A stretch of 57,014 nt of DNA, taken from the NCBI GenBank assembly GCA_017437285.1, contig JAFSBM010000063.1, positions 1-57,014 on the forward strand, read 5' to 3'. This document shows, one piece after another, positions 5,186 to 29,905 of this stretch (positions are counted from its first letter, which is position 1; every line of letters starts with the position of its first letter). The position numbers were made by a program, and so were the translations under genes. The DNA comes from Ruminococcus sp. (GTDB taxonomy: Bacteria > Bacillota > Clostridia > Oscillospirales > Ruminococcaceae). The notes under the pieces are model-generated. The model searched no databases, was not told the DNA's origin, and worked only from the letters and a program-made list of their open reading frames with translations.

Positions 5186-8100
5186 TTATCTTTTCTTTTT
5201 CCTCCATACAAAGAATCCAATACCAGCTGCAATTACTACTAAAACAGCTCCTCCGATATACAACCAGAAATTTCCCACATGGAGATAGCGTACTCTATCA
5301 ATATTCCACTCATTGCCTGCTTCGTCGACAAGTGTAATATCGATGTGATGCTGTCCCTTTGTTAAAGTAAATGAAAGCGTATCCGTTTCCGGATCATATG
5401 TAGATGGGATTTCAGTTCTTTCTCCATCTCTAGGACACTCGTAAACCTTTGTTGCATGCTTATCAAGTGTTTCACTAATGTCTGTCAATGAAATAGTAAC
5501 CTCATCCTTAAAGAAATAATTATGCCAATCCTTGAAGTCTTCGGGAAGTGTTGCTGTTGGAGCCTCGTTATCGATATGGATGGCCGCAAGATCCAAATAA
5601 ACATCATCACGAATGCTTACTGACAAATACATTCTTGTATCAAGGCTGTCATCGCGGAATGTTTCTGAGAAATAGTTGCCAGGAAGCTGAATGTAGCTCA
5701 AAGTTGCAGTCTCTGATAGCTCTTCATTTTCAATAGTCAAATATTCCTGCGGAGAGTACTGATTTTCATCTTCTCTCAAAACAAGAGCACCTGCTGCATT
5801 ATCCGTTGTAGGCTTAATTACAAGAATATCAAGATTCTGGAAATCTGCAGCTTTTTTACTAATTGCTCTGCCATCGTCATTAACCAGCGAATAGTAGCCT
5901 GTTCCATTCTGTGTTCCTGAATCAGTAGGCTTTTTACTATTGTAAATATATGCAAGCACATCAGTTTCTACCATTCGGAAATATGTATCGCTGATTACTT
6001 CACTACGATTACCAGCCTTATCTACAGCAACAAATGTTACCGCATAAACGCCATCCTTATCAAATCCACTCAATGTAAATTTTGACTGATTAATAGACTT
6101 TGAAAGATCAGCAGCAAGAGGACTCATTTCAATTGTGCCAAGTTCCATACCATTTTCATAGGTTGGAGTGTAAACCTGTGCTTCAATCTCAATTCTATCA
6201 AAGTTCAAATCGGTAAACTCCACTGTTGGTGCAGGTTTATCTTTCAATTTTTCATCATAAACTACAAAGTACGGAGTAGCTACAAATCCTTCTTCTGTGG
6301 ACTGAATATCATTACGTGCATGAAGTATAGGTGCAATTGTGTCAATTTCAATAACAGGAGTATGATCAACAGAACCATCCTTCATTTTACACGTGTTACC
6401 TGCCCTGTCTCTAGGAGGGTATTTTTTGCCATCGTCTATTACAAACATCCGAATTCTGTATACGCCATCTGTTGCAAAAGTGATTTCCAGAGTATGCGTA
6501 TCACCATCATGCTTCCAGTCGGTAGAATACCCGATATCGCTCCAATCCTCATCATCAGAATGCCCTGATCCAGATGCCTTAGCCTCCACACGAATTCCCA
6601 TATCAGATGGATCAAAATTATGCTCATCTACTTCAATTTTTGCAATCTGTTTAGTGTTAAAATAGATTCCTTCATCCGCATCATCACCAAAACTATTGAA
6701 GTTTGTCTTAATAATCGGTGCTGTTGCATCTACATTAAACTTTTCATAGAAATAGTTGCTAACTTCTCCGTCATTATAAGAAATATTTGCGGAGTGCCCT
6801 GCACGGTCAGTTCCTGAAAATGAAAATTCAAAGTCGCCCTCGGAGAACGATACTGTTGCTGTATGAGTTGAACCATTTGATTGGAAGTTCACTGAAGGTA
6901 TTGTTCCAGTAAATCCATTTGTGATTGTTGCAACCATCAATCCCGGATCAAAATTTCTTTCTGTTACTGTAATCGTAAACGCAGTACTTCCAGGATAATA
7001 CATGCCATTAATCAGTTCAGCATTATTAGAAATAGCAATAACAGGTGCGATCGTATCAATTGAAAACGCTTCACTGCTTATCGGATCACATGCATTAGCT
7101 GCACGGTCCGTGGCATTGAATGTCATAACAATATTGTTATCATCGCTATTAAATGTAAATACCTGTGAAACTTCTGTAATCAGATTTACATCCGTTTTAG
7201 TAATTTCCCATCCATTTGCAAGAAGCATATTTTCAGAATAACCATCTGTATTACTGATTGTATTCACAACAGCATCATAGCTATCCTGTTCAGAAGATTT
7301 GGAATAAGAAATTTCCTTCAGACCGGATTTAGGATCAGAAACGGTAACTCTGAATTGTACTGTTCCCGTATAGAGTTTATTATTATTTTCGTCTGTTCTG
7401 GTACTATCTGGTAATGGTTCGATCGTGATAACAGGAGCAACATCATCAATTACAAAACCCTGAGGTGTTTTTTCATCGGAGATATTGCCAACCTTGTCAT
7501 ATGCCTGAGCATAGATTTGTCCCTTGAAACCAGCAGGAATCGTATAGCTTGCCTTGCCATCAGTAATTACTACTTCATGCAATTCAGCCTCCTGCTCCTC
7601 ACCATCTACATAGGGTACAAGACGAAAGACAACTCTGTCAAGATCTGATGAAGGCACTTCATCAGTTACACTTACAACTGCATCAAAACCTTTTTTGAAA
7701 TAAAAACCATACTCAAGCTCTTCAATAAACTCTGTGACTTCAGAAATATCATCAGAAGTTGCAGGAGCAAAAGTAAACTGAACTACAGAAGGATTTACAA
7801 TATCTCTGTAATATATCGGCTTTGCATCAGGATATGTATTTCCATCACTGTCAACAGGATTTGAATTTACATTACCTGCATTGTCCACGACTTCTACTTC
7901 AATGATATAGCTGCCATTTTCATTCGCTGGAATCATTTCAGCAATTTTCTCAAGTGAGTAAGAGTACAAATATCCCTCTTGGCTATTCATTGCTGTATTT
8001 GCATTTGACGTTGCTTCTACTGTAGGCAATGCAGCCTGATTAATTTCCATTTCAGAGCTAACGATTTCGCCATTGATTTTCATTTCAACTGAACGAATAC

Positions 8101-11100
8101 CAGAATTCACATCCTTGACTTGTAATACAATCAGTTTTTCTGTATCAGTCTCACTATTTTCATGCTGTCTATACCATACCTCCCCATCAGTACGAGTAAC
8201 GCTGTCCGTTTCTGGAAGAATTACTGTCACCTCTGGAGGTACTGTTTCAAGCATCACAAAGTTTCCCTGTACTTCAACTGTTCCTTCTGTATTTTTGATA
8301 TTTGGGCATTTCAGATTAGTTTTCCCCATTTTATCATAAACAGTAACTTCGATTTCACTTTGGAAAACTTGTGTATCAATGTCAAGATAAGCGTAGTATT
8401 TGCCTTCGCTCTCCTTGGTCATTTTTTGAGGTTCTTCAAGTCCGTCATGTTTAATGGTAACATAATCTACACCACTGTCATTCTCAACATCAGAAACATC
8501 TACAGAAAAGACTAATGAATCACTTGCAAAAACACCAAACGTAAGGACATTCAAGAGATTATCCACCGCATTATTTTTAGTATCTACAGTAAAACGATTG
8601 ATATCTGGATTGCTTGTATCTACATGAAGTGCATATGAAGCTGAACCCTTGTTATTTGATTCAGTCCAGAATTCCGCATCCACCATGTAAGTGTGCGCAT
8701 CGTTGCATTTTACCGTTTCGGTATTAATGAATATATCCACATAATACTTTCCATAGTGAGCATCCGCAGTATCTTCTATCAATTTAAATTTATCTGCCGT
8801 GATCTGTTGATAATCCTGGTTATTGATAGATACTTTTCCTCCATATAGAGGTGCACCATTTGAATCAGCATACAGGCGGAAAATAACGTCTTGATAGTTT
8901 CCAGAAGCATCCTTTTCTGTGATCCAATCATTCTCATCAATCTGTTTAACTGATGGCGACGCTACTGTAATGCTTCCTTCAGGTTGCTCATGGTCAACAT
9001 AGAATTGATAACTACCCGACGCTGGTGCATTACCAGCATAATCTTGTGCAGATACTGAGAAGGTATAAAATCCTGTATCAAGTTTACTTGTATCGACAAC
9101 ATACTCATATCCATTTTCAATTTGCTTACAAGCTGTAATCTCAATAACAGAATTTTCACCAGTTTCACCAGCTGTTAGTCTATAGTTTTGGGTAATTACT
9201 GTCTCATCGACATCCAGACCACCTTCATCTGTAATTGTAAGAGTAAAGTTGCCGCCATCGTCACCATAATAATACACGCTGTTTACAGGCTTTTTATCTG
9301 CATAATTTGCCATGATACTTGGTGAATGATTGTCAAATACCCACTTATTCGAAACTACATCATCCCAATTGATAGTAGGAACTGTTGTCGTTTCAGTCGT
9401 TTCCGTTGTCTCATCTGTACTTGAAGTTGTATCATTTGATTCTGTTTCTTCGGGTGCGTAATCTTTCAATGCTTTTTGAAGAGAGAGCCTTAAAGGATTT
9501 TGTCCATCTGAAATTTCAATGTAAAAATCCTCAATAACAGGTTCAGAAAACTTTTCAGGATCCAATGAAAAACAATATTCACCTTCATCACCATTGATAC
9601 GAGATATTTCTTTCGCATTATCAGCACCATCCATAATTGCTACATATTCAATCCCAAGTTTGTGGTCGCTATATGATGTGTCTAACGCTTTTATAACCAA
9701 TTGGAGCTTTTGATTAGTATAATTTCCGAAAGTAAGAATCTTTAATACAGTAGCTAGCGGAGTTTCATCTGTAGTTTCAAGCTTAGCATAAGTAATTATA
9801 GGAGCCTTAGTGTCCGGTCCGTTTTGAGAAGAACAATATAAATCACTTTCTGTATGCACATTATTTGCATTATCAGTAATTCTAAAATATAGTGTATGTA
9901 AACCATTGTTGTAACTTACATCCTGCGATTCTCGGTAAAGTACAATATCGTTAAAGTTAACCGGTACGTTAGGCTGATTGGTAATATTCTTATATTCTTC
10001 CCAATTTTGATCATCCCATTTAAATTCAATCTTTTTGATGCCTGATTCCGTGTCTACAATCTGGCCCTTCGCTTCAAATTGCTGTTTAACGTCATCATAT
10101 GTAATCAACATATTGTTAACAGCCGACTCTTTTTTATCAAGAATCAACTTATGGGAGAACCTGTCGTCATCTGGTGAAAGTTTAATTTCAAGTCCCACTT
10201 CGCTTTCTACACCATTTGACGCTAAACACTTAAGGGATGAAAGCGTGGTGCTCATTTGATTTTCTGGAATATCGAGTATAAATTCAGCAGTATACAACTG
10301 CATATCCCTTTCACCATCAATCTTTTCTCCTGTTGTCACTTCGATGCTTTCCAACTCATTTTGTTCATTGTAAAGTGTAAGTGTAACTGGCACACTTGAC
10401 TTGGCTGAAACAGAAAGCTTTACACTTCCGTTCGCAACAATACCAAAATCGCAATACTCCAAAACACTTGCTGTATCCATACTAACAATTGCTTTTTTTT
10501 CTATTTCAGGAGCTTCGGGTGATGAAACGGGTACAGTAACTCCCTCTTCAATTGCCAAAGTATAATTTGAGTTAGTAACAGCATTCTCATCACTCAAAGT
10601 ATAAGTATATGCACCTGTCGCATCTTTGTCAATATAAAGTTTAGCATTTACATCGACACTATCTCCTTCAAGCACTTTATCTTCTGTCCATGTATAAGAG
10701 ATTTCTTTTGGAACAGTTTCCCCTTCAATAATTCCTTCTGTTGGTTTAACATAAAGAACAATAGGAGTAATATCTGCAGTAAGTATTATTTCATCCTGCT
10801 CGTCAGTGAGATTTAAGATGTATAGTTCTGCATCATCACCCTGCAGAGCCAAATCGGATACTACAACTTCCTTTTGCTGTCCAGCGTTGACATCACTGAA
10901 TTCAGCTGCACCTGTCAGTTCTACATCATGTTCATCTGCTACACCATCTAAATGTACATTTGAAAAATCAACATTAACAAGTGGTGTACCATCATAGATC
11001 TTAGATTCAGCAACAAGACTCTCTGCAAAATCTTCGTCCAATGTTATTGATGTTTTTTCGCTTTCCTCCTCAACAGCATTAACCGAAAAGACGGAGAACG

Positions 11101-11170
11101 GAATCTGGTTGCCTGCAAGCATCAAGCTACAAACAAATGCTAATATTTTCTGTCCTTTCACTTTAAGCAC
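5186..11170 (-). CDS. Giant Ig-like surface protein with YDG domain, membrane-anchored
   Basis: A 1,994-aa protein. Residues 1-33 are a signal peptide ending near SVFSVNA. At about 53-130 there is a YDG domain (SKIYDGTPLVNVDF...ELTGAAEF). Then come many bacterial Ig-like repeats with the recurring tags 'DNAGN', 'DTIAPVI' and 'DRAGN' (at least ten, spread over residues 340-1900), broken by a Thr/Glu/Ser linker near residue 610 (ETTETTETTTVPT). The end is one membrane helix (WLYIGGAVLVVIAAGIGFFV) and WRKKKR, with no LPxTG before it, so it is probably membrane-anchored rather than sortase-linked. It lies downstream of the secretion genes, on the same strand, and overlaps the upstream gene by 13 bases. 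A likely role is a cell-surface stalk or adhesin. Binding partner unknown. Confidence 0.85.
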   Translation of the reverse strand: MLKVKGQKILAFVCSLMLAGNQIPFSVFSVNAVEEESEKTSITLDEDFAESLVAESKIYDGTPLVNVDFSNVHLDGVADEHDVELTGAAEFSDVNAGQQKEVVVSDLALQGDDAELYILNLTDEQDEIILTADITPIVLYVKPTEGIIEGETVPKEISYTWTEDKVLEGDSVDVNAKLYIDKDATGAYTYTLSDENAVTNSNYTLAIEEGVTVPVSSPEAPEIEKKAIVSMDTASVLEYCDFGIVANGSVKLSVSAKSSVPVTLTLYNEQNELESIEVTTGEKIDGERDMQLYTAEFILDIPENQMSTTLSSLKCLASNGVESEVGLEIKLSPDDDRFSHKLILDKKESAVNNMLITYDDVKQQFEAKGQIVDTESGIKKIEFKWDDQNWEEYKNITNQPNVPVNFNDIVLYRESQDVSYNNGLHTLYFRITDNANNVHTESDLYCSSQNGPDTKAPIITYAKLETTDETPLATVLKILTFGNYTNQKLQLVIKALDTSYSDHKLGIEYVAIMDGADNAKEISRINGDEGEYCFSLDPEKFSEPVIEDFYIEISDGQNPLRLSLQKALKDYAPEETESNDTTSSTDETTETTETTTVPTINWDDVVSNKWVFDNHSPSIMANYADKKPVNSVYYYGDDGGNFTLTITDEGGLDVDETVITQNYRLTAGETGENSVIEITACKQIENGYEYVVDTSKLDTGFYTFSVSAQDYAGNAPASGSYQFYVDHEQPEGSITVASPSVKQIDENDWITEKDASGNYQDVIFRLYADSNGAPLYGGKVSINNQDYQQITADKFKLIEDTADAHYGKYYVDIFINTETVKCNDAHTYMVDAEFWTESNNKGSASYALHVDTSNPDINRFTVDTKNNAVDNLLNVLTFGVFASDSLVFSVDVSDVENDSGVDYVTIKHDGLEEPQKMTKESEGKYYAYLDIDTQVFQSEIEVTVYDKMGKTNLKCPNIKNTEGTVEVQGNFVMLETVPPEVTVILPETDSVTRTDGEVWYRQHENSETDTEKLIVLQVKDVNSGIRSVEMKINGEIVSSEMEINQAALPTVEATSNANTAMNSQEGYLYSYSLEKIAEMIPANENGSYIIEVEVVDNAGNVNSNPVDSDGNTYPDAKPIYYRDIVNPSVVQFTFAPATSDDISEVTEFIEELEYGFYFKKGFDAVVSVTDEVPSSDLDRVVFRLVPYVDGEEQEAELHEVVITDGKASYTIPAGFKGQIYAQAYDKVGNISDEKTPQGFVIDDVAPVITIEPLPDSTRTDENNNKLYTGTVQFRVTVSDPKSGLKEISYSKSSEQDSYDAVVNTISNTDGYSENMLLANGWEITKTDVNLITEVSQVFTFNSDDNNIVMTFNATDRAANACDPISSEAFSIDTIAPVIAISNNAELINGMYYPGSTAFTITVTERNFDPGLMVATITNGFTGTIPSVNFQSNGSTHTATVSFSEGDFEFSFSGTDRAGHSANISYNDGEVSNYFYEKFNVDATAPIIKTNFNSFGDDADEGIYFNTKQIAKIEVDEHNFDPSDMGIRVEAKASGSGHSDDEDWSDIGYSTDWKHDGDTHTLEITFATDGVYRIRMFVIDDGKKYPPRDRAGNTCKMKDGSVDHTPVIEIDTIAPILHARNDIQSTEEGFVATPYFVVYDEKLKDKPAPTVEFTDLNFDRIEIEAQVYTPTYENGMELGTIEMSPLAADLSKSINQSKFTLSGFDKDGVYAVTFVAVDKAGNRSEVISDTYFRMVETDVLAYIYNSKKPTDSGTQNGTGYYSLVNDDGRAISKKAADFQNLDILVIKPTTDNAAGALVLREDENQYSPQEYLTIENEELSETATLSYIQLPGNYFSETFRDDSLDTRMYLSVSIRDDVYLDLAAIHIDNEAPTATLPEDFKDWHNYFFKDEVTISLTDISETLDKHATKVYECPRDGERTEIPSTYDPETDTLSFTLTKGQHHIDITLVDEAGNEWNIDRVRYLHVGNFWLYIGGAVLVVIAAGIGFFVWRKKKR

Positions 11171-13829: not shown

Positions 13830-13990
13830 TCACTTTTCTCCTCGTCATATTCCTTAAAAATAAGGTTATAAATAGTTTCAGGAGATTCTACAGGAACCTT
13901 TTGGAGTTCAATAGGTTTTGATTCTCCATAGGCGCCTTGCATAGTATTGCCTACAGAACCGAAAACCCCAGTACTTCTTTCCTCGTTCAT
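13826..13990 (-). CDS. 54-aa protein locked between WXG100 and kinase genes
   Basis: A short frame (MNEERSTGVFGSVGNTMQGA...) whose ATG overlaps the WXG100 stop (ATGA) and whose stop overlaps the kinase ATG (ATGA). The product is hydrophilic, with an acidic end (KEYDEEKSE), and has no membrane segment. Coupling on both sides is strong evidence that it is translated. It fills the only gap in the operon between the WXG100 and kinase genes. No family is recognised. Confidence 0.7.
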   Translation of the reverse strand: MNEERSTGVFGSVGNTMQGAYGESKPIELQKVPVESPETIYNLIFKEYDEEKSE

Positions 13991-14313
13991 TGCGCTGCCC
14001 CCTCTTCAGCTTCACCAGCTGTTCGGTTATATTCACCGAGGTCCTTATCTATAGCTTTATACTGATCCACGAGGTCACGTACCACCGTATCATTAATAGT
14101 ATTCAAAATTTCTTCTATACCACCAATTTTCTCCAGAATGTGGTCTGCTACCTCTTTATAGGCACTCTTGCCACTGCCTTGCCAGTTACTCATAAGTGTG
14201 CTATTGATTCTTTCGAATTCAGTTCTGATAGCGGCAAATTCTTTAATTGCCTCCGCACTACCTGTAAGAAAACTCTCAAGCTTTCCTATATCAGCTTTGA
14301 TAAAATCAGCCAT
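13987..14313 (-). CDS. WXG100-family secreted protein
   Basis: A 108-aa, all-helical protein with the central motif NWQGSGKSAY (W-x-G in the turn between two helices), as in EsxA/YukE. Starting MADFIKADIGKLESF and ending EYNRTAGEAEEGA, it has no signal peptide and the usual length (about 100 aa). WXG100 proteins leave the cell as helical hairpins through EssC-type ATPases. It is translated from its own AGGAGG and ends on the start of the 54-aa gene. This is the clearest WXG100 of the four similar genes here. Confidence 0.93.
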   Translation of the reverse strand: MADFIKADIGKLESFLTGSAEAIKEFAAIRTEFERINSTLMSNWQGSGKSAYKEVADHILEKIGGIEEILNTINDTVVRDLVDQYKAIDKDLGEYNRTAGEAEEGAAQ

Positions 14314-14316
14314 ACT

Positions 14317-16011
14317 TTATTCCTCCTCGTATCTGATAAACTTTAGTTTCTTAAGTTCATCTCTTTCAATGGAATAGAAATACCCGTCGCCTTCCTCACA
14401 CGGTGCATATTCTTCCTTCAGAGATTTAACGTCCATACTACCAAAAAGCGATTTTTGACCTCTTTCACCAACAAATTCCGCAATGCTATCCAAAAGGTAA
14501 GCTGCACTGATTGATGAATGAAAGTTTTCTCTCGTTTCACTATCGCTGATCGCCTTAACATCAGTAAAAATGAAGATCCAATTCATCTCATCGGCACGTG
14601 CCACAAGGGATGGCAGAATAATTTCCATAAAAATCTTTGATGCGATTGAATTTACATATAAGAATTTGCTTTGTAAGACAAAAATCGTATACTTCGAATC
14701 AATAAGACCTGCTCTTGAAGGAATATTTACACCAGCTCCAAAAAGTTCACCCAAAACAAGATTACTCATTCGTCGAACCTGTGATAAATCCATATAGTTT
14801 TCATGGATTTCCTTAACAAGTAGTTGCATTGGTGACAACTTCATATTTTCTGTCCAGGATCCCTTTGAGTTTTTGAAATCAATAGTCATTTCCTCATTGA
14901 ACTGAATGTATCTCGACCTGCTTTGAACTTTTTGGTATATTTTTTTCAATTGCTCACGACCATCGTCCAGAAATACAAAGCGATACTGCGGCGAAGCAAT
15001 AAAATTCTCAAGCAGAAGATTGAGCGTGTTAGTTTTTCCAAAGCCCTTTTTTCCATAGATTGCAACAGCCTTCGACGAATTAAAATCAATTGTAACAGGC
15101 TTGCATTCAGTATAATCAAGACCAACGCTAACGCTATGCTCATCTGATCTTTCATTTAATTCTGCTACAAAAGAATCGTAGAGCAATTTCGTCAACACCT
15201 CAGGAAAGCGTTTGTATTTTTTTACTGTTCTGTTTTGGAAATAAACCTTCAGATTGTTATGAAATTCAGGTGCAGAAATATCATCAGCAATATTTAATTG
15301 AAGTTCATATGCAACTTGAAGAGGAAATGTTCCTGTAATACCTTCTGGGATAACTGTAACATTAGCAAAACCATGTCCTGGGTTGTTGCCAACAGGGATT
15401 ACCTTATGGTTGAAAATTTCCATATAACTATCGACCGGCATTTCTAATGCAATTTTCTGCTTAAAATTTCCCATTAACGAACCCAAACCTTTTGTCGAGC
15501 TTGCAGTCATCACTATTGTAATTCCCTTTGACAATCCATCACGACAAAGTTTTGCCAGCTTTTCCTGATAAGCACTATATCTTGGTTCATCCAGAAATGC
15601 ATTCACATTATCAATAAATAATGTCGTATGTACAGGTTGATTATCTGTAGCTGCACGATAGTTCTTGCCCTTCAGTTGTTTGATATTGTCTTTGAGCTGA
15701 TCCTCCATCAACTTAAAGACGCGCTTTACATACTCCTCATTTGCATTATCAAAATATGCTGCAACGAGAGGAAGGCTTTCAAAATTTGCTAATGCTCCGC
15801 CAAAATCAAGAATAAAGATCTGTTCTTCGTTCTCACGGTACTGCTTATGCAGTATAGTTATCAATAGCCTGATAAGATTGGTTTTGCCACTCATCGGGGA
15901 GCCAAACAACAAAACATTTGAATCCAACAGATCCACAGTAAATTCAGGCTGTTCCTGAATAACAGGTATATCCTGCTGACCCAAAACACAAAGAATTTTA
16001 TCTACTGCCAT
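14317..16011 (-). CDS. FtsK/EssC-type ATPase, C-terminal (D2-D3-like) half
   Basis: A 564-aa protein with two P-loops: GSPMSGKT (37-44) and GKKGFGKT (320-327), each followed by strands and acidic Walker-B positions (IFILDFGG near 66-72; TLFIDNVNAF near 130-140). This matches the two distal ATPase domains of EssC. It lacks N-terminal FHA and membrane segments, which sit in the preceding gene. ATG at 16011 has GGAGGTG eight bases upstream; the GTG start at 16026 would overlap that site. It lies five bases after the stop of the N-terminal half, so the two are co-translated. EssC is normally one chain of about 1,450-1,500 aa; here it is split. It would use ATP to move WXG100 proteins and toxins. 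Confidence 0.88.
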   Translation of the reverse strand: MAVDKILCVLGQQDIPVIQEQPEFTVDLLDSNVLLFGSPMSGKTNLIRLLITILHKQYRENEEQIFILDFGGALANFESLPLVAAYFDNANEEYVKRVFKLMEDQLKDNIKQLKGKNYRAATDNQPVHTTLFIDNVNAFLDEPRYSAYQEKLAKLCRDGLSKGITIVMTASSTKGLGSLMGNFKQKIALEMPVDSYMEIFNHKVIPVGNNPGHGFANVTVIPEGITGTFPLQVAYELQLNIADDISAPEFHNNLKVYFQNRTVKKYKRFPEVLTKLLYDSFVAELNERSDEHSVSVGLDYTECKPVTIDFNSSKAVAIYGKKGFGKTNTLNLLLENFIASPQYRFVFLDDGREQLKKIYQKVQSRSRYIQFNEEMTIDFKNSKGSWTENMKLSPMQLLVKEIHENYMDLSQVRRMSNLVLGELFGAGVNIPSRAGLIDSKYTIFVLQSKFLYVNSIASKIFMEIILPSLVARADEMNWIFIFTDVKAISDSETRENFHSSISAAYLLDSIAEFVGERGQKSLFGSMDVKSLKEEYAPCEEGDGYFYSIERDELKKLKFIRYEEE

Positions 16012-16016
16012 TCTTA

Positions 16017-19000
16017 TCACCTCCACTGTGTCTTATCGTGCATTTTACTCTTAAGCGGTCTCTTGAAAATCATACGAGGTTCACGGTAGTAGCATGAATC
16101 CTTATTCTGATTTTTAAATCGTTCGATCAGCTTAACAATGTAAAAAAGCTGTGTATCGTGCGATTTAACGCTTTTTGATGACTTTCTAATTCTGTCATTG
16201 TGCTTAGAAGAAACATAGTATCCTTGATTATGGCTACCGCAGGGGAGGACTTGAGTTGCTCTTACGACCGGTTCAATATTTTCATCTTTATTTGCCCCTG
16301 TGTAAGCAGACTGAAAATACATGAACTTACTTCCGGTACCAACAAGCAAATACGCACGCCCATTTCCAGGCATTGTAGGGGAAGCAGCATCTGTTCTACC
16401 ATCAAGCATTTCCTTTGAAGCTGATCTTGTAGCGACCTTAAGACAAATTCTTGATTTGGAGTTGATACGAATGTCCTCTGTAATTGCTCCCTCGATATTT
16501 TGAGAAACTAGAATAATATGGAAGCCGAGCGTTCTTCCGACTCTGGCAATTGTTGTGATTTCAGCAATAAAGTCAACATCGTCACTTTCACTGCTAAATC
16601 GCTTTAATTCAGTAAACTCGTCTACTACAAGAACAAGGTGAGATAAAGTTTGAGGCAACTTGTTTTCTGCCTTTAGCTTTCGCAATTGTTCCAATTGTGC
16701 AGGATTCAATGATTGTTCAAGATCCGGGTTATTATCACCCTTTAAAATTTTAGTGATGGTTCGCTCAGCACGAATGTACGCATCAACATTATCCACGCCA
16801 AACTCCTTAAGGAGAATTTTTCTTCGCTTAATTTCAGCGTTAAGAACTTCAAGAAAGCGCTTCAGCATGTAAATTGCAGAAATTCCTTCGCTCTCACCGG
16901 CTGTATCGTCAACAACGCCTACACAATGCGGTAATGACTGAAGTCTATCTGAAAACCCGCCGCCCTTCATATCAACTAGCATAAGATTCAAGTAGGTTGG
17001 AGAATACTTCATGCAAAGACCAATTAAATAGGTTATGATAGTTTCAGATTTACCTGAACCAGTTGTACCAGCAACAAGCATATGCGGACCATCTGCTTTT
17101 TCATAAAGGTCAAGCGTTACAACACCATGTTCGTTTTCGCCCATAGGAACACAAAGATCTTTGGTTACATCACTTTCATTCCACATCTCCCAAATCTTGC
17201 TAATGATTTCGTCTCTTTCCACCATTTCTGATGTGTATCCATACAATTTAAAGAGAGTAACCATAGAAGGAACATTTCCGTTTTCTGCAATTCTTCGATA
17301 ATAAATTGCACTTAACTGACGGAAGGCTGTTTCATAGGCTGATGCTATTCTTTGACCGCCTTGTTGTGCAGCATCATAGAAAATAAAGCTGTTTTTGAAC
17401 ATTTTATAATCAATAAGGTCTTCAATATCATCTGTAGTTTCAGAGCCACTGCTTCCACCTCTGCTGAGATTATTAAGTGTTTCTCTTGAAAGCACATTAT
17501 ATCTGCTGCTGACCTTTGCATGTTCACCCGTCGAACCGGTAACCTCAATAATATTACCGCAATAACGAGGTAATTGAGCAAGATGACGACAAGCAAAAAT
17601 GAATGTTAACCCATTTGTGTTTACATAATCTTCACCCTCTACTGGTGGTTTGGGAAGATACTTTGAAAAGCCTGTTTCCTTTATATCATAATCATCGAAT
17701 ATGATACAAACAATTTGAGTATGCTGCTCTTCCACATTCTTCTCTTCCTCTTCATCTTCCTTTTCTACAGTACGTTCACCCATGATAGCCTGAAGCTTAC
17801 CAAATACAATTCCTGCACTGTCCTTATCAAAAACAAATTGAGACGCATCTTCAAAAAGTTCGTTTGTATGCGGCAGGTTTTTATAGTTTCGGATAATTTC
17901 CATCTGTTTACGTTTGTCACTTTCCTTATTGAAGAAAAATACAAACTGCAGATCTTCTGGCGTATGATAATATGCCAACTCAAAGACAATATGTTCAATA
18001 AAATTCCTTGAGTAGTTCGTAACGGGTTCAATAATACCAAGTGCACCACAATTCTTCAAATCAATCGTAAGAGGAGGAAGCTGTCCATTATTATCAGCCT
18101 GTAGATAACGGAAACTCTTATTTGCAAGATGATCAGGCAACTCAGAAAGCAAGCCATCTGGTTTTACAGGTAAAACCCCTTTAGGCTTTTTTCCAAGCTT
18201 TTCAGGTGGAATAATTATCTCGATGCGACGTTCACTGTTATCCTTATGAATTTTGAATCCAATTTCAGATACTATCTCATCTTTTTTCTCGTTTTTGATT
18301 TCAAACATCGGAACTACTTGTTCGGATGTACCCAGGGAAATTTTAAAAAAGTCAAGATCGTTCTGTGAGCGAGCGAAAATAGCTCTGTCAAGCAATGCAG
18401 CTCTTGCAAACAACTCGCCAATAGCCGGATAAGTAGTACAAAGGTAATTTATATCACTCTTCTGCCATTCAAGAATACGATTATATATTCTTGTGAGATA
18501 ATTTTCGTAGTTTATTTTCCATTCTTCTACTGACTTATCGTTATCTTTTCCTTGTTTCACATAGTTATAGCTTTGTGTAACCATAGTCGATATAGATGTG
18601 GTCATCACCATCGCAATCATCGAAAAGCCAGCCGCATTATCATTAAACAAAGCCATTAGCGCACGGCTTCCGCATAACGCCGCCATTGATATAACCGTTG
18701 GAATTAGGACATCAAGATAGCTTCGCTTCTGTCCTACTGGTAATTCACCCGCCGGAAGAATATCAATTACCGATGGCTCAGCAACAGCAATTCTGCGTGT
18801 ACTGATATTATATTCCATCTTATCCTTGTCGCAGATTGCTGGCATGTCGTAACGTGGAAAAAGTGCCGTTAGCACTATCTTATCTGATTTTGGAATCACA
18901 ACACAACTTGTAGTTACAATTCCTAGCTTATATAGTTCCGTTTTAAGGGTTTCACCGTTTACTTTAATAACATTGAGTTCCTTTTTAGCACGGAAATGTA

Positions 19001-19187
19001 CAAGAATTTCAGAATGCTCTTTTATATATTTCTTGAAAATTACAAAATGTGCTTTATCGTTCTGTTTTAAGCCGTAGTATATAACTTCAAGCAGTGCTTT
19101 CAATGTAATGTCTTTATTCAATAAAAGTGAAAGTTCTTCACCATCATTTTCGAATTTAATTGTAAGGAGAAGTTCATTATTCTTCAT
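16017..19187 (-). CDS. EssC-like ATPase, N-terminal half with ubiquitin-like domain
   Basis: A 1,056-aa protein. Residues 1-100 have the strand-rich pattern of a YukD/EsaB ubiquitin-like fold (LLLTIKFENDGEELSLLL, helix ALLEVIYYG, then VVIPKSDK). Two membrane helices follow at about 158-178 and 188-208. A linker leads to the FtsK-type ATPase with P-loop AGTTGSGKSE (706-715), LMLVDMKGGGF and Walker B LVLVVDEFTEL (856-857 acidic). In the best-known EssC the N-terminus carries two FHA domains; here a ubiquitin-like part appears to take their place. A good AGGAGG precedes the ATG. Together with the next gene it forms the motor of the system. Confidence 0.9.
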   Translation of the reverse strand: MKNNELLLTIKFENDGEELSLLLNKDITLKALLEVIYYGLKQNDKAHFVIFKKYIKEHSEILVHFRAKKELNVIKVNGETLKTELYKLGIVTTSCVVIPKSDKIVLTALFPRYDMPAICDKDKMEYNISTRRIAVAEPSVIDILPAGELPVGQKRSYLDVLIPTVISMAALCGSRALMALFNDNAAGFSMIAMVMTTSISTMVTQSYNYVKQGKDNDKSVEEWKINYENYLTRIYNRILEWQKSDINYLCTTYPAIGELFARAALLDRAIFARSQNDLDFFKISLGTSEQVVPMFEIKNEKKDEIVSEIGFKIHKDNSERRIEIIIPPEKLGKKPKGVLPVKPDGLLSELPDHLANKSFRYLQADNNGQLPPLTIDLKNCGALGIIEPVTNYSRNFIEHIVFELAYYHTPEDLQFVFFFNKESDKRKQMEIIRNYKNLPHTNELFEDASQFVFDKDSAGIVFGKLQAIMGERTVEKEDEEEEKNVEEQHTQIVCIIFDDYDIKETGFSKYLPKPPVEGEDYVNTNGLTFIFACRHLAQLPRYCGNIIEVTGSTGEHAKVSSRYNVLSRETLNNLSRGGSSGSETTDDIEDLIDYKMFKNSFIFYDAAQQGGQRIASAYETAFRQLSAIYYRRIAENGNVPSMVTLFKLYGYTSEMVERDEIISKIWEMWNESDVTKDLCVPMGENEHGVVTLDLYEKADGPHMLVAGTTGSGKSETIITYLIGLCMKYSPTYLNLMLVDMKGGGFSDRLQSLPHCVGVVDDTAGESEGISAIYMLKRFLEVLNAEIKRRKILLKEFGVDNVDAYIRAERTITKILKGDNNPDLEQSLNPAQLEQLRKLKAENKLPQTLSHLVLVVDEFTELKRFSSESDDVDFIAEITTIARVGRTLGFHIILVSQNIEGAITEDIRINSKSRICLKVATRSASKEMLDGRTDAASPTMPGNGRAYLLVGTGSKFMYFQSAYTGANKDENIEPVVRATQVLPCGSHNQGYYVSSKHNDRIRKSSKSVKSHDTQLFYIVKLIERFKNQNKDSCYYREPRMIFKRPLKSKMHDKTQWR

Positions 19188-20836: not shown

Positions 20837-21199
20837 TTACTGTCCTTCAGTCGACTGACCTACTGTACGATTGTTTTCACCGAGAGAAGGATCAAGGCCT
20901 TCGCCACCAATCAATGTCTTTTCAATACTGTCGAAAAGTCCTTCGCCTTCCTTATCAAACATACCAAGATACTGATCGAATGTTCCACCATTGGCGAAGA
21001 ATGTCTTGATGTTATCATCAAAGAATGTCTTAAAACCATCCGCAGCTTCTCCCTGGAAACCAGAACTTAAAAGGTCAGTTACAGTACCCTCCAAATCCTC
21101 ATAGAATGTCTGAACCTGTGTGCGGAAATCCTGACACACTGTTTTTGCTTTCTGCATTTCATCGCTGATGATTACTTTGCTTGTTGAACCCATTGCCAT
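20837..21199 (-). CDS. WXG100-like protein (FxG variant)
   Basis: A 120-aa protein (MAMGSTSKVIISDEMQKAKT) with two helices around GFQGEAADGFKTF, a FxG turn replacing WxG, which is common among WXG100 relatives. The C-terminal tail LGENNRTVGQS resembles the tail of the WXG100 protein at 14 kb (EYNRTAGEA). This may be a shared secretion tag, although the usual YxxxD/E signal is not obvious. GGAGG precedes the ATG. Confidence 0.8.
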   Translation of the reverse strand: MAMGSTSKVIISDEMQKAKTVCQDFRTQVQTFYEDLEGTVTDLLSSGFQGEAADGFKTFFDDNIKTFFANGGTFDQYLGMFDKEGEGLFDSIEKTLIGGEGLDPSLGENNRTVGQSTEGQ

Positions 21200-24083: not shown

Positions 24084-25631
24084 TTACTTTGTTAATCCAA
24101 TATTTTGAAATATTGTTTTAAACGCATCTCCGTTCATATTGTATGTAACCTTATAAGAAGATGGTCTGCTCGAACCCCAACTATAATTTATCTTCACTTT
24201 GACATCGGTAACACTACCATTATTTTTCAATGTATTTGCCCATTGATCCTCCATTGAACGGTATGTAAATTGGCCTCTTCGCAATTGATTAACGTCACTT
24301 GATTGAGAGGTTAGGTTGTCGAGTTTGCGTGAACCATTAAACCTATCGCCAAATATATGACCTGCGTCATCACCAGGTAGTTTTCCAGGGGTGTTTCTAT
24401 CATTAACATATCTTCCACGACCGTCTGTTTTTAAATATAATTTATCAGCATATCCTTCTTTGATTAAACCAGCACCATTTTCACCTTTACGTCCTGTTAC
24501 ATAATGATATGTCGTGCCATCTTCACCACTAGAATATTTTACATGTCCTCTAGGAACCATGTCTCCATTTTCATTCATGTACATATGACTACCATCAGTA
24601 ATTTCTGCTTTACTATAAGCAGCACCACTAAATACGGCTAAGCCCGTAATACCTTTTTGAAATCCATTATAAAAATTGTTATTATGTAGCGATTTATTAA
24701 AAGCTAGAAGTTTGCTATCAGGATTGATAAGTCCAGCGATTTGTGAAACTAAATCAAATCCCGCCATTCCAAGTGAAATTGTACCAGAAATTTTAGCTGT
24801 ATACTGAATAGCACGAAATGCTTTGTAGGAAGTTCCAAATGCCGAGCCGAAAGCGCCACCCGCAAAGCCAATTCCACCCATCATAAAGCCAGCTGCAAAT
24901 CCATCACCAAAAGCTTTTTTTGCAAGCAATCTCGCTTCCTGAGGTGATGCACCCGATAATCTTGCTATACCGTAGGTTATACCTGCATTGACACTTCCGC
25001 CAATAGCTCCGGCAATCAATGCAGTGGCTATACCCTTAGCTAATGCTGCGCCAAATGCTGCCCAAAATGCAGTTCCAGTTCCAGCTGTAAATACGGTAAT
25101 CAAAGCTCCAACTACAATAAAAGCTATTCCAACAAGAATTTCTTTCCAATGCTCCTTAACCCATTCAACAACATCTAACGCAAAATTTTTGATTGCGTTG
25201 CCGATACTGCAAAGACCATCCCAACCTTTTTTTATTGCATCCTTTACTTTTTCGCGCCTATTCTTCTCACATTCCGGCTTCAAATAGTAATATCGATCAT
25301 AGAAAGCATCCTTACGCTCTCTAATCTTACTGGAGGCTTTCATATCAACCGAACCAGTATCAGCAATAAGTGTGTTCAGCTTTTCATAAGCTAAAGAAAG
25401 GGAACTTTTCTTAGCGAACTCTCGCTCTTCAGCTTTTTGTGTCTGTTCCTGAGAGGTTTCAACCTTGGCAGCAACCGAAGCAAGATCAATTTTTGATTTT
25501 AATGTTCCGAGTGCTTTACTAAGACCGCTAGAAGAACTTCTTGCACTGGTGAATGCTACTCCAATTCCTTCAAAAGCACCCATTCCCATGGTACACCCGA
25601 ATGTACCACCTGTCAATGTGATTGTTGCCAT
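24084..25631 (-). CDS. Polymorphic toxin with non-specific nuclease C-terminus
   Basis: A 515-aa protein. Residues 1-145 are a conserved domain shared with the next toxin (MATITLTGG, then GMGAFEGIGVAF, AYEKLNTLIADTGSVD, DRYYYLKPECEK). The middle (about 150-330) has several Gly/Ala-rich hydrophobic helices (EILVGIAFIVVGALITVF) that could insert into membranes. The C-terminus (about 400-515) has GDDAGHIFGDRFNG (His425), later NL and QLRRG, and YRSMEDQWANTL, the pattern of DNA/RNA non-specific endonuclease toxins of YeeF type. A YezG-like immunity gene follows. It would be exported to attack rival cells. Confidence 0.82.
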   Translation of the reverse strand: MATITLTGGTFGCTMGMGAFEGIGVAFTSARSSSSGLSKALGTLKSKIDLASVAAKVETSQEQTQKAEEREFAKKSSLSLAYEKLNTLIADTGSVDMKASSKIRERKDAFYDRYYYLKPECEKNRREKVKDAIKKGWDGLCSIGNAIKNFALDVVEWVKEHWKEILVGIAFIVVGALITVFTAGTGTAFWAAFGAALAKGIATALIAGAIGGSVNAGITYGIARLSGASPQEARLLAKKAFGDGFAAGFMMGGIGFAGGAFGSAFGTSYKAFRAIQYTAKISGTISLGMAGFDLVSQIAGLINPDSKLLAFNKSLHNNNFYNGFQKGITGLAVFSGAAYSKAEITDGSHMYMNENGDMVPRGHVKYSSGEDGTTYHYVTGRKGENGAGLIKEGYADKLYLKTDGRGRYVNDRNTPGKLPGDDAGHIFGDRFNGSRKLDNLTSQSSDVNQLRRGQFTYRSMEDQWANTLKNNGSVTDVKVKINYSWGSSRPSSYKVTYNMNGDAFKTIFQNIGLTK

Positions 25632-26148: not shown

Positions 26149-27342
26149 TCAATAAGAAACTTGAAGTTTAGGCATTGTAAAGACGTTCTTCACGAAATTA
26201 GAAAAATCAAAGTCTATCGCACTGTTAAACACAGTTTCAAACGAATTACCAAACATACCAGAAACAATGCCGTTACGGAATGTTTTGTATGTAAGTCCGC
26301 TAATCGCTTGATTTCCATTAGAAATTCTAGTCAGCATACCTTTGAAAGACGCTTCATAACTTCCTCGTCCTGCTAAACGTCTAAAGAATGTAATTTGCGG
26401 GAAACTACGTGATAAGCTCTTACCAACCTTATCCCCGACCTTTGTAAACAAAGCAGACATTCCAACGCTAAAAGCTGTATTCCCTAAAATCTCCAATGAC
26501 GAACGTTTTTCACCGCCAGTTGCATTGCTTAAATGTCCACTAAAGAATGTTGAGAATCCAGAAGCGAACATATTAGCAGCCATCGGGTGGCCAGTTAACA
26601 TTAGAATACCTCCAAGTGCTCCACCAAGCGTGGATCCTAAGTATTCCTGCCAGCTACTACCTTGCCATTCCAACTTACCAGTTTTAAAGAAATGCATTCC
26701 CGTCGCTATTACATCTCCTAGTGCCTGACTTAAAAAACCAACAGCGGCACCTACCATCGCTGCAATTAGTACTGCACCAGCACCAAAAGTACATACAGCA
26801 AAAACTACAACAGCTATCGCAACAAGTGCAGCTGCTAAAAGCTCCCAATTTTCTTTACACCACTCGCCAACACTCACTACAAAATTTTTTATAGCCTCGC
26901 CGACACCGCCCCAAAAATCCTTGACATTTTGCCATCGTTCCGCACGTTTATCTTTTCTTTTTTCTTTTTTTGTTTTCTCACACTCTGGCTTTAAATAATA
27001 ATACCTATCATAAAAGGTTTCTTTGCGTTCTCTGATTTTGCTTGAAGCCTTTATATCAACAGAACCGACATCAGTAATCAATGCACTAAGTTTATCATAA
27101 GCCAATGATAACGAACTTTTCTTATTTTTTTCACGTTCATGTGCAGCTTTAGTCTGCTCTTGGGATTCAGAAACATTAACACCAATCGACGCTAAACCAA
27201 TTTTAGCTTTCAAACTTCCAAGTGCCTCTGTGAGATTATTTGCAGATTGTTTCAAGCTAGAAAAGGCTACTCCAATTCCTTCAAAAGCTCCCATGCCTAT
27301 TGTACAACCAAATGTTGTTTGTTTCAGTGTAATCGTAGCCAT
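26149..27342 (-). CDS. Polymorphic toxin-like protein with unknown C-terminus
   Basis: A 397-aa protein sharing residues 1-135 with the toxin above (TFGCTIGMGAFEGIGVAF, SVDIKASSKIRERKETFYDR, YYLKPECEK), followed by hydrophobic Gly/Ala helices (LAAALVAIAVVVFAVCTFGA) and a different C-terminus (RLAGRGSYEASFKGMLTR...FSNFVKNVFTMPKLQVSY). No nuclease motif is visible. It may be a pore-forming toxin, a truncated module, or carry a new effector domain. It follows the coiled-coil partner gene. Confidence 0.65.
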   Translation of the reverse strand: MATITLKQTTFGCTIGMGAFEGIGVAFSSLKQSANNLTEALGSLKAKIGLASIGVNVSESQEQTKAAHEREKNKKSSLSLAYDKLSALITDVGSVDIKASSKIRERKETFYDRYYYLKPECEKTKKEKRKDKRAERWQNVKDFWGGVGEAIKNFVVSVGEWCKENWELLAAALVAIAVVVFAVCTFGAGAVLIAAMVGAAVGFLSQALGDVIATGMHFFKTGKLEWQGSSWQEYLGSTLGGALGGILMLTGHPMAANMFASGFSTFFSGHLSNATGGEKRSSLEILGNTAFSVGMSALFTKVGDKVGKSLSRSFPQITFFRRLAGRGSYEASFKGMLTRISNGNQAISGLTYKTFRNGIVSGMFGNSFETVFNSAIDFDFSNFVKNVFTMPKLQVSY

Positions 27343-27368: not shown

Positions 27369-27932
27369 TCATTCACCATTCTGCCATTTTAACTCATATT
27401 CTTTCATTTCTGTGTAATATGCATTTACCTGTCGTTGAGCCGAAGACTCACTGCCAACGTTATTAAGTTGTGTTGTTACGCTTGTCAATTCATTACTACA
27501 ATTCGTTACAGCTGTTTGAGCAGTAGCTTCCTGCCCTTCAAGTTCTTTTATTCTAGCTTGAAGCTCTGTGATAACCGCATCCAGATTTGAATTAGTACTT
27601 GAAATATCTGTTGAATATATTGAAGATAAATCAGCCACACCTGTGTCCGATGAAATGATTTTTTTATACTCATCACTTGTGGTTTGAAGATCTTTCTTCA
27701 TAGTTGGAAACTCATTTTCAAGAATATGCTTGCATTTATCAAATGCTTCTTGCACCAACAACTTTTTCTGCTGAATTGCGACTAATGCAGACTGTTTTTC
27801 GCCAAGCTCACGAGTAAGCGTTGTTTTCTTTCCTTGTAATTCACTTGCATTTCTTCGAATTGCATCCCTGTTCTCAATTGCACGATTATAATTATTTCTC
27901 GCAATGTAGTACAATTCTTCATAGTTCGGCAT
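27369..27932 (-). CDS. Coiled-coil partner protein at the head of the secretion operon
   Basis: A 187-aa product from ATG at 27932 (AAAGGAG eight bases upstream; a start 13 codons earlier lacks one). It is almost wholly helical (MPNYEELYYIARNNYNRAIE, later QARIKELEGQEATAQTAVTN), without signal or membrane segment. Small helical partners that pair with toxin N-terminal domains are typical of LXG-type operons (YwqH/DUF5082-like). It is the first gene after the invertible segment, and so the gene whose transcription that segment would control. Confidence 0.72.
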   Translation of the reverse strand: MPNYEELYYIARNNYNRAIENRDAIRRNASELQGKKTTLTRELGEKQSALVAIQQKKLLVQEAFDKCKHILENEFPTMKKDLQTTSDEYKKIISSDTGVADLSSIYSTDISSTNSNLDAVITELQARIKELEGQEATAQTAVTNCSNELTSVTTQLNNVGSESSAQRQVNAYYTEMKEYELKWQNGE

Positions 27933-28067
27933 AAGCTCAACTCCTTTACTATTCTCTATTAATTTGCACATACTACTATGTAGTCATTGCATTGGATAAC
28001 GTTCAATTTAAGGTTTGACAATCATGAGATGCACAACCTAAAATATAATTAGAGTATCATAATGATA

Positions 28068-28086
28068 TTTCGCAAAAGGATGAATT
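28068..28086 (+). repeat. Left 19-bp inverted repeat of recombinase segment
   Basis: TTTCGCAAAAGGATGAATT. Its exact reverse complement lies at 29357-29375; the match ends at both flanks. The site sits 48 bases past the recombinase stop and 135 bases before the secretion operon's first start. A 13-bp palindrome (TATCAT-A-ATGATA, 28055-28067) abuts it on the outside. Confidence 0.95.
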
Positions 28087-28134
28087 GTGCGACGCCCCAC
28101 ACCAATCTATTCAGTTTTCAAGTTACCATCCCCC

Positions 28135-29217
28135 TTAAAACGCTAGGTTCAACCGCTTCATATACTCCCTCTTCTGCTCGAAAGAGGAGTGAACATACCG
28201 ATTCAGCGTGATTTCTACGCTGCTATGCCCAAGAAGCTCGCTTAACGTCTTTACATCAAAACCCAGTTTTACGCAGTTTGATGCAAACATATGACGCAGG
28301 GCATGAAAGTGAACTGACGGCAATTTTGCGTTTTTCAGAATCGTGCGGAAACGATACTGCATCGCTCTGGGTTCGATCGGCTTTTCCGTTCCTGTCAGCA
28401 GAAATTCCTCATCCTTACCCCTGAATTTAAGCAAAAAGCTCATCATACAATCCGGAATCGGTATTTTTCTTTGCGACGATTCACTCTTAGGATTTGTGAT
28501 GATGAGCTTTGTTCTTGAAAATTCTGTCGGACACTGGATACGCTGCATCGTTTTCCTGACGGTCAAAATGCGTTTTTCGAGGTCGATATCCTTCCACTGC
28601 AGGGCACACAGCTCCCCGATGCGGATTCCTGTGGACATGGACAGTGCTGTACCCAGCGTGCTGCGATTCTGATGACTGGCAACGTAATTTTGCAATTTCA
28701 CCTGTTCTGACTCGTCAAGAAGCTGAATTTCGGGCGATTTCTTCTTCGGCAACGACACACCGTCCAGTGGATTGAAAATGTGATAGGTTCTCACAGCGTA
28801 TTTGAAGATCGTTTTCATCAGTATCACAATATCTGCAACATACCGCACAGATAATCCTGCTTTCTGCTTCTGCGAAATGAACGCATAGATGTCATCTGGT
28901 GCGATGGAACTAATCAGTTTATTACCGAATATAGGCAGAATATGCTTTTCAGCCTTCATAGCATAGTTGGCAGAAGTGGATTCCTTGACAAGATGCTGCA
29001 CACTGCGGAACCATTCATTGAAAAGTGCATCCACAGTCTTATGACATTTTCCAGTCGGCTGCTCATTACGGCGAATTTCAGCCATTTTCTCAACAACATC
29101 CTCTCTTGTTCTGGCGAGAATGTATTGATACTTCCGCTTCCCATCCTTGCGTTTACCCCTTGAAATACGACCTTCCCAGCGACCGTCCTTGCGGTGATAG
29201 ACATTGACTCTTTCCAT
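28135..29217 (-). CDS. Tyrosine site-specific recombinase
   Basis: A 360-aa protein. An N-terminal AP2-like arm-binding start (MERVNVYHRKDGRWEGRISR) and core-binding helices lead to the catalytic domain with the expected residues: Arg in TGIRIGELCALQW, HALRH (second His/Arg pair), LLGHSS and RYVHSS (active Tyr). Length and order match phage-type integrases. GGAGG precedes the ATG. The gene is enclosed by a perfect 19-bp inverted repeat, as in invertible elements, and lies at the junction of the secretion locus and the prophage region. It may invert the segment, integrate the prophage, or both. Confidence 0.95.
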   Translation of the reverse strand: MERVNVYHRKDGRWEGRISRGKRKDGKRKYQYILARTREDVVEKMAEIRRNEQPTGKCHKTVDALFNEWFRSVQHLVKESTSANYAMKAEKHILPIFGNKLISSIAPDDIYAFISQKQKAGLSVRYVADIVILMKTIFKYAVRTYHIFNPLDGVSLPKKKSPEIQLLDESEQVKLQNYVASHQNRSTLGTALSMSTGIRIGELCALQWKDIDLEKRILTVRKTMQRIQCPTEFSRTKLIITNPKSESSQRKIPIPDCMMSFLLKFRGKDEEFLLTGTEKPIEPRAMQYRFRTILKNAKLPSVHFHALRHMFASNCVKLGFDVKTLSELLGHSSVEITLNRYVHSSFEQKREYMKRLNLAF

Positions 29218-29283
29218 AGTTTCCTCCTTGTATAATTTCTTTTGAATTCAACCCAAAATTTACAAAAAACGCTACTCCAAGTA

Positions 29284-29312
29284 TTGACATTTTCGACAGA
29301 ATGTGATATAAT
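29284..29312 (+). promoter_or_regulatory. Consensus promoter inside the invertible segment
   Basis: TTGACA (29284-29289) and TATAAT (29307-29312), spacer exactly 17. It reads rightward, away from the secretion genes, and would start near 29319, 38 bases before the right repeat. A terminator follows beyond the repeat, so in this orientation only a transcript of about 90 bases would form. After inversion it would read into the secretion operon through the left repeat. Confidence 0.9.
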
Positions 29313-29356
29313 TGTTAATATAGAATTTGTGTGTTTGATAATGTGACCCTTCTCAG

Positions 29357-29375
29357 AATTCATCCTTTTGCGAAA
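29357..29375 (-). repeat. Right 19-bp inverted repeat of recombinase segment
   Basis: AATTCATCCTTTTGCGAAA, the perfect reverse complement of 28068-28086. The promoter is 45 bases inside this end, and the terminator stem starts seven bases outside it. Confidence 0.95.
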
Positions 29376-29381
29376 CTTTCA

Positions 29382-29409
29382 CGCCACCAACTTGAATTGG
29401 TGGCGTTTT
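29382..29409 (+). terminator. Intrinsic terminator just outside the right repeat
   Basis: CGCCACCAA (29382-29390) and TTGGTGGCG (29397-29405), loop CTTGAA, then TTTT. It catches transcription from the inward-lying promoter in the present orientation and protects the XRE gene from read-through. Confidence 0.85.
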
Positions 29410-29499
29410 CATTTGCAAATTCAATAAAATTGCCACTAATTAGCTATTCATAAGTTGTGAAAAAACTTCAAAAGTAGTATTGTAAATCCTTACACCTAT

Positions 29500-29528
29500 A
29501 TTATACACCTAAAAGTCTATAATTTCAA
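29500..29528 (-). promoter_or_regulatory. Minus-strand promoter facing the recombinase, divergent from XRE gene
   Basis: On the minus strand TTGAAA (plus 29523-29528) and TATAAT (plus 29500-29505), spacer 17. GGTG directly precedes this -10, and the same GGTGTATAAT occurs inverted at 29561-29570, upstream of the XRE gene, so the two could share an operator. It is the best candidate promoter for the recombinase, 280 bases away, but a transcript would have to pass the right repeat and the hairpin. Confidence 0.6.
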
Positions 29529-29596
29529 GCCCAAGCGGATATTATTTTATTCACCGCAATGGTGTATAATAATTACAGGTGGAAAGGAGCGTTGCT

Positions 29597-29905
29597 ATGG
29601 ACATCGGTAAAAAAATCAAGGATATTCGAACTTCAAAAGGGCTTTCAATGTACCGCATCACCCAGATTACCGGCATTTCCGGGCATCATATAAAGGGAAT
29701 TGAAGATGGCACCAGACAGCCTACAATCGAAACGCTTCAAAAGCTATTGATTCCTCTTGGAATTACTCTTGCAGAACTGTTTAGCACTGATTCTTCCTCA
29801 ACATATTTGAGTGACAAGGAACGCACCTTAATAGAGAATTTTCGTTCCCTTAACATGGAAAAAGCAGATGCTTTACTATATTTCAGCGAAGTACTGAAAA
29901 AATAA
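29597..29905 (+). CDS. XRE-family transcriptional regulator
   Basis: A 102-aa protein (MDIGKKIKDIRTSKGLSMYR) with an N-terminal XRE helix-turn-helix: ITQITGISGHHIKGIEDGTR is the recognition region. A short C-terminal helical part (SDKERTLIENFRSLNMEKAD) may dimerise. ATG at 29597 follows AAAGGAG at eight bases; a GTG six codons earlier is less likely. It probably binds the repeated GGTGTATAAT boxes in front of it, and so would control itself and the divergent promoter toward the recombinase. Confidence 0.88.
   Translation: MDIGKKIKDIRTSKGLSMYRITQITGISGHHIKGIEDGTRQPTIETLQKLLIPLGITLAELFSTDSSSTYLSDKERTLIENFRSLNMEKADALLYFSEVLKK

Follow-up and report, generated by a model that had tools for sequence, protein, structure and literature searches.

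A candidate autonomous invertible promoter cassette facing a type VII-like secretion operon in Ruminococcus

Does the DNA segment which precedes a type VII-like secretion operon in Ruminococcus sp. act as an ON/OFF switch that turns by inversion? The question is raised by a stretch of 57,014 nucleotides (assembly GCA_017437285.1, contig JAFSBM010000063.1), referred to here as the window, from what is probably a rumen or gut bacterium; it makes up an entire contig of a genome that totals 4.13 Mb over 235 contigs. An earlier note, drawn from the letters alone, had proposed a recombinase-bearing invertible promoter at this place. In our analysis, positions 28068-29375 very probably form an autonomous invertible promoter cassette which serves as ON/OFF switch of the type VII-like operon and which lies in the OFF orientation in the window. 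We describe the anatomy of the cassette, its conservation across a family, and orthologous loci that occur in both orientations, including those at a homologous type VII-like operon. From these sequences we infer activity of the recombinase on the two sites, an active promoter and, for this strain, phase-variable secretion. The features are collected in Table 1.

Table 1. Features of the cassette, its flanks and the type VII-like operon (positions in the window)
Feature	Coordinates	Strand	Remarks
1994-aa protein, bacterial Ig-like domains	5186..11170	-	late in same-strand run; homologue in the G002 operon
WXG100-like protein	13987..14313	-	E 4.4e-4, below curated cut-off
EssC-like ATPase, C-terminal part	14317..16026	-	E 6.7e-42, below cut-off
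EssC-like ATPase, N-terminal part	16017..19187	-	T7_EssCb_Firm E 3e-109; 366 bits, cut-off 778
WXG100-like protein	20837..21199	-	E 8.5e-5, below curated cut-off
Putative secreted toxin	24084..25631	-	DNA/RNA non-specific endonuclease C-terminus
Putative secreted protein	26149..27342	-	N-terminal region like that of 24084-25631 (by inspection)
First operon gene, 187 aa, coiled-coil-like	27369..27932	-	AAAGGAG just upstream
Promoter-like site TTGACA-18-TAAAAT	28015..28044	+	11/12; left (operon-side) flank, reading into the segment
Left crossover site	28068..28094	+	outer arm TTTCGCAAA, spacer AGGATGAAT, degenerate inner arm
Tyrosine recombinase, 360 aa	28135..29217	-	inside the invertible segment
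Outward promoter TTGACA-17-TATAAT	29284..29312	+	inside the segment; same position in relatives
Right crossover site	29349..29375	-	inverted copy, spacer identical to left
Terminator-like hairpin	29381..29406	+	immediately past the right repeat; in the present (OFF) orientation the promoter reads into it
HTH (Xre-type) regulator	29579..29905	+	promoter-facing side; relatives beside two other cassettes (74%, 46% identical)

The perfect 19-bp inverted repeat which the earlier note placed around a tyrosine recombinase (28068-28086 / 29357-29375) is exact, and it grows to 34 nt at 82% when mismatches are allowed. With up to three mismatches, the window holds no further copy beyond the two, and the whole genome adds just two other matches, with 2 and 3 mismatches. 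None of 100 shuffled sequences contained two matches under the same tolerance, which upholds the view that a chance match of this length is very unlikely; the layout is furthermore conserved across the family described below. The 19 bases are the first part of the left crossover site. The window site is probably about 27 bp long with a degenerate inner arm: at both ends the inner arms are degenerate, while the outer arms and spacers are identical.

The enclosed gene matches the Pfam Phage_integrase family with an E-value of 2.6e-27. Residues R199, K244, H305, R308, H331 and Y341, which we take to be the catalytic residues of a tyrosine recombinase (R-K-H-R-H-Y), are invariant in an alignment with 21 relatives. 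The window enzyme is thus a phage-integrase-type tyrosine recombinase and not a serine recombinase of the Hin type. Between the recombinase start and the right repeat lies the rightward-reading promoter, whose reported consensus character is borne out by a full sigma-70-like score of 12/12 and a TG ahead of the -10 element. A terminator had been claimed at 29382-29409; the hairpin found there begins six bases past the right repeat and has a folding energy of -16.7 kcal/mol (z = -4.4) and a short T run (GTTTTCATTT). The assignment of the window to the OFF state fits this terminator beyond the promoter-facing repeat, an arrangement that recurs in some relatives.

On the operon side, the note had found no good promoter. 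A motif scan of 27933-28067 agrees for the strand of the operon, as it gives no minus-strand sigma-70-like site of at least 9/12; the description needs one addition, namely the plus-strand site at 28015-28044. After inversion, this site would read in the sense direction toward the recombinase. Across the family, inward-reading flank sites of at least 10/12 are in weak excess (19/95 and 16/95 flanks, against 5% in shuffles), and the recombinase might be driven from such sites.

In the proposed mechanism, strand exchange by the encoded recombinase would take place in the spacers, which are identical at the two inverted sites, and the segment would flip. In the ON orientation, the internal promoter would read across the left site into the 23-kb operon, with 198 bases separating the -10 element from the ATG at 27932. 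The OFF orientation is the one found here; in it, the promoter would run into the terminator just past the right site. The OFF state may leak, because the recombinase gene reads toward the operon and no terminator is listed between them.

Comparison with relatives shows whether this layout is peculiar to one locus. Relatives of the recombinase, many of them distant, occur in 97 of the 99 genomes. We took 56 regions, nearly all around the closer relatives, together with the best 80 loci from the genome collection and the best 80 from the viral collection. Among 218 recombinase loci, 11 duplicates were dropped; 34 of the remaining 207 are truncated. Loci with at least 36% identity, both flanks readable and non-redundant were defined as family members, which gave 118 among the loci sampled. 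In these sequences the family occurs in Ruminococcus and other Clostridia; named isolates that carry it include R. flavefaciens FD-1 and Ruminococcus sp. YE71.

A flanking inverted repeat scoring at least 13 is present in 103 of the 118 members, and one scoring at least 16 in 94. Integrases below 36% identity reach 13 in only 4 of 55 cases, and two of these four (L115 and L196) are relatives at 35.6-35.8%, L115 having the geometry of the family. When the flanks of different loci were paired as a control, 18 of 400 pairs reached the same score. A chance origin of the repeat is ruled out by the shuffles, by this mismatched pairing and by the more distant integrases. The 15 members without a repeat of score 13 count against the switch reading; five of them are partial matches to the gene, and another five have repeats that are imperfect, at the distances typical of the family.

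A geometry filter removed L137, L174 and L198 from the 103, and the remaining 100 loci were used for the comparison of sites. In 94 of them, the best fit consists of arms TTTCGCAAA and TTTGCGAAA around a locus-specific spacer of 9 bp. In 73 of the 100 loci, the window included, both ends carry the same spacer. In the other 27 the two spacers differ by one base (22 loci), two bases (3) or five bases (2), the last being L082 and L166, where a longer repeat shifted the fit; when the first and the last base are ignored, the spacers agree in 95 loci. Such agreement within a locus is what strand exchange by a tyrosine recombinase demands. Between loci the spacers vary widely, with 86 different ones among the 94 loci. 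In seven hand-picked genomes the cassettes listed within each had different spacers, eight of them in genome G002; L166 was left out of the set with L162, L163 and L172, which come from the same metagenome-assembled genome (MAG). L162 has the spacer of L166 at one of its ends, such as recombination between two cassettes would leave. Private spacers would keep the cassettes of one genome apart.

The promoter is conserved as well. An outward promoter inside the segment scores at least 10/12 in 92 of the 100 loci and at least 11/12 in 60, against 22 and 3 for inward sites and a shuffle background of 7% and 0.8%. In the sequence immediately beyond the repeats, outward sites reaching at least 10/12 are scarce (7/95 and 8/95). 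Terminator-like hairpins are also placed unevenly: they lie outside the promoter-facing repeat in 36 loci and outside the other repeat in 11, with 6% in shuffles.

Inversion can be traced at orthologous loci. In three locus sets, the cassette is flipped between matching flanks. In the first, L121 and L122 stand against L123; their recombinases are 70-72% identical to that of the window, and a neighbouring gene encodes a large surface protein in which a von Willebrand-like motif can be seen by eye. In the second, L100 and L116 stand against L167 of Ruminococcus sp. YE71. The third set concerns a diverged homologue of the type VII-like operon and comprises L066 in the Ruminococcus genome G002 and L126 in G099 (R. 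flavefaciens UBA2946, a MAG). When their cassettes are aligned in one direction (78% over 1292), both the operon side (81% over 205) and the terminator side (72% over 221) are reversed. L066 is in the OFF orientation with its promoter meeting the terminator, and L126 is ON; in both, EssC follows downstream and shares contig and strand with the first gene. The orthologues belong to different species or MAGs, so that the comparison speaks of inversion over evolutionary time and not of its rate.

Together with the conservation of the family, these sets support the proposal that the layout is that of phase-variable switches. The note advised a search for inverted junctions in related genomes; there inversion appears in these flipped orthologues, and no inverted junction was found for the exact window locus: its own assembly contains a single orientation and no inverted copy. 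The pattern of the window's left flank plus repeat gave 0 matches in the viral contigs. Other comparisons with both flanks matching show one orientation only (L078/L084, L134/L185 and L100/L116), as do further partly matching pairs, many around LytTR targets. Three apparently swapped pairs were set aside, L073 with itself since it represents two overlapping readings of one contig, and L114/L127 and L070/L114, whose matches span 52-85 residues. Some contig ends repeat the other flank (55 nt in L166, 136 nt in L082/L144); as assembly-graph traces of both orientations these duplications are only suggestive. They are not counted as proof because the genome of L166 has similar cassettes and L162 carries its spacer.

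Two other readings of the cassette can be weighed at this point. The window locus could be a switch that has become fixed in the OFF state in this strain, with inversion blocked by the degenerate inner arms or another defect and the operon silent or weakly read from the recombinase transcript. The degeneration of both inner arms and the single orientation in the assembly would fit, but L100, L116 and L167, in each of which one of the two inner arms is degenerate, occur in both orientations, and in the window the two sites agree in outer arm and spacer, the intact recombinase keeps the invariant catalytic positions and the promoter is a full 12/12. We consider a locked switch unlikely. Still less credible, and indeed scarcely probable, is that the recombinase is the integrase of a mobile element, with the repeat as the ends of a small transposable unit and the promoter as an incidental feature. 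Its N-terminal region presumably resembles those of Tn916-type integrases, and the family is spread over many loci in several families of Clostridia. In records of three genera, Butyricicoccus, Blautia and Agathobaculum (L177, L179 and L180), a cassette and its surroundings of 8.8 to 13 kb are moreover 99.99-100% identical, which suggests recent movement. A transposable unit, however, does not account for orthologous loci that differ by inversion at the repeats, for spacers that match within a locus and differ between loci, or for the conserved promoter.

An origin of the window recombinase from a phage or plasmid was rejected, as its best matches there are distant among those listed: 51.7% on the R. 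albus 7 plasmid and 42.5% in a faecal phage record. The relative at 52% on this plasmid (L292, NC_014825, 133-146 kb) is flanked by a weaker repeat, of score 15 and with the usual spacing, and its neighbours include two more tyrosine-type and three other recombinase genes.

The same-strand operon of about 23 kb starts at 27932, left of the left repeat. Its EssC-like FtsK/SpoIIIE ATPase is split over two genes, both parts of which fall under the TIGR03928 cut-off of 778 bits. Two further proteins of WXG100-like size give no WXG100 match. The operon also holds a TPR protein, a kinase-like protein and small proteins with weak matches to membrane families. The earlier note's term type VII-like fits the ATPase and two WXG100-like proteins, but each of their matches lies under its curated cut-off.

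Related operons support the association with the cassette. On the G002 contig, 11 of the 22 minus-strand window proteins are matched in the same order, with EssC at 37% over 1102 residues; the first 20 kb of the G099 contig match 6 of the 22, with EssC at 38% over 1092. In both genomes the cassette lies directly upstream of the operon run. A region in a third genome, G031, matches 8 of the 22 and has a closer EssC (49%), with no family recombinase nearby among those listed. This cassette-free relative of the operon adjoins, by eye, an AgrB-like membrane protein and a divergent gene (L290, 14251-16700). The product of the first operon gene finds no counterpart by tblastn in the operons of G002, G099 and G031, which counts against the switch reading. 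A tree of 47 recombinases places the three linked to secretion operons together with L065 in a set of four with support of 99/95; the target of L065 consists of other genes.

The genes beside the cassettes are diverse. Judged by ORF position only, 45 of the 100 loci have an outward-reading first gene on the far side alone, 21 on the promoter-facing side alone, 25 on both sides and 9 on neither, so that these assemblies contain roughly two OFF-like layouts for every ON-like one. Among the 70 far-side first genes, LytTR (10), Wzz (4) and BspA-type LRR (4) appear in the 25 commonest of 102 families, and among the 46 promoter-facing first genes, HTH_3 (7) and VWA (2) appear in the 25 commonest of 54, which do not include LytTR. 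The LytTR branch may be biased to one orientation or may work differently. Loci guessed to belong to it from a far-side gene of about 240 aa are L102, L103, L107, L158, L160, L163 and others. At L124, a 181-base inverted repeat (5685-5865 / 7097-7277, score 172) overlaps the 5′ ends of two large surface-protein genes; inversion there may choose between genes with a common signal region.

The HTH regulators on the promoter-facing side of some cassettes raise a further alternative, in which inversion mainly controls the rightward HTH regulator of the window and the secretion operon is regulated elsewhere. The cassettes with outward genes on both sides also fit it. Against it, a terminator-like hairpin stands between promoter and regulator, and homologous secretion operons lie directly downstream of the cassette in two other genomes; we regard it as very unlikely. 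Upstream of the HTH gene (29499-29571), the inverted pair TATTATACACC / GGTGTATAATA overlaps a minus-strand promoter-like site of 11/12 and is a possible operator.

Several known systems share parts of the design of the invertible promoter cassette. The Salmonella flagellar phase switch relies on Hin, a serine recombinase; like the window, it carries recombinase and promoter inside the segment and exerts ON/OFF control of an adjacent operon, whereas here the recombinase is of the tyrosine type, the promoter in OFF faces a terminator, and one genome holds several cassettes that differ in their spacers. In Clostridioides difficile, the cwpV, flagellar and cmrRST switches are likewise recombinase-driven inversions of a clostridium beside surface or virulence operons; RecV works on switches located elsewhere in the genome, while each cassette here brings its own recombinase. 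At the pneumococcal spnIII/hsdS locus, a tyrosine recombinase gene lies near or among inverted repeats, as here, but the inversions shuffle coding sequence and not a promoter.

The earlier note did not know a switch with an internal recombinase and a secretion system as target. The first element is not new: a passage of PMC5903667 states that recombinases occasionally lie within the invertible segment, with Hin as the example, and promoter inversion with such an arrangement is already known. An inverton group of Clostridia (139) has been linked to a nearby tyrosine recombinase group (35) in PMC11892184, and these groups may include members of the window family; section 8 and passages of that paper give no such cassette layout, spacer design or secretion operon. 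Type VII secretion is itself already known to undergo phase variation, since passages of PMC11898584 describe ESX-1-associated phase variants of Mycobacterium tuberculosis; there, reversible clonal variation likewise affects type VII secretion, but it arises by indels in homopolymer tracts and not by inversion. The second element fares better. Titles and abstract openings from the literature searched contain no inversion control of type VII secretion, no invertible promoters of Ruminococcus and no description of the window cassette family.

Beyond the window, we incline, with a good deal of reserve, to a broader picture. Ruminococcus and other Clostridia would carry a many-member family of autonomous inversion cassettes that each combine a recombinase and promoter of their own with a private spacer address, so that several in one genome (eight cassettes with eight spacers in one case) flip independently. 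One branch, placed before type VII-like operons, would make toxin secretion a bet-hedging trait, and the cassette-free relative of the operon adjoins instead a locus which looks like agr-type signalling. If this is true, rumen and gut bacteria would vary clonally in type VII-like toxin secretion through programmed DNA inversion, and such variability would bear on the competition between strains. The family would also be a source of many natural pairs of recombinase and site with different spacers.
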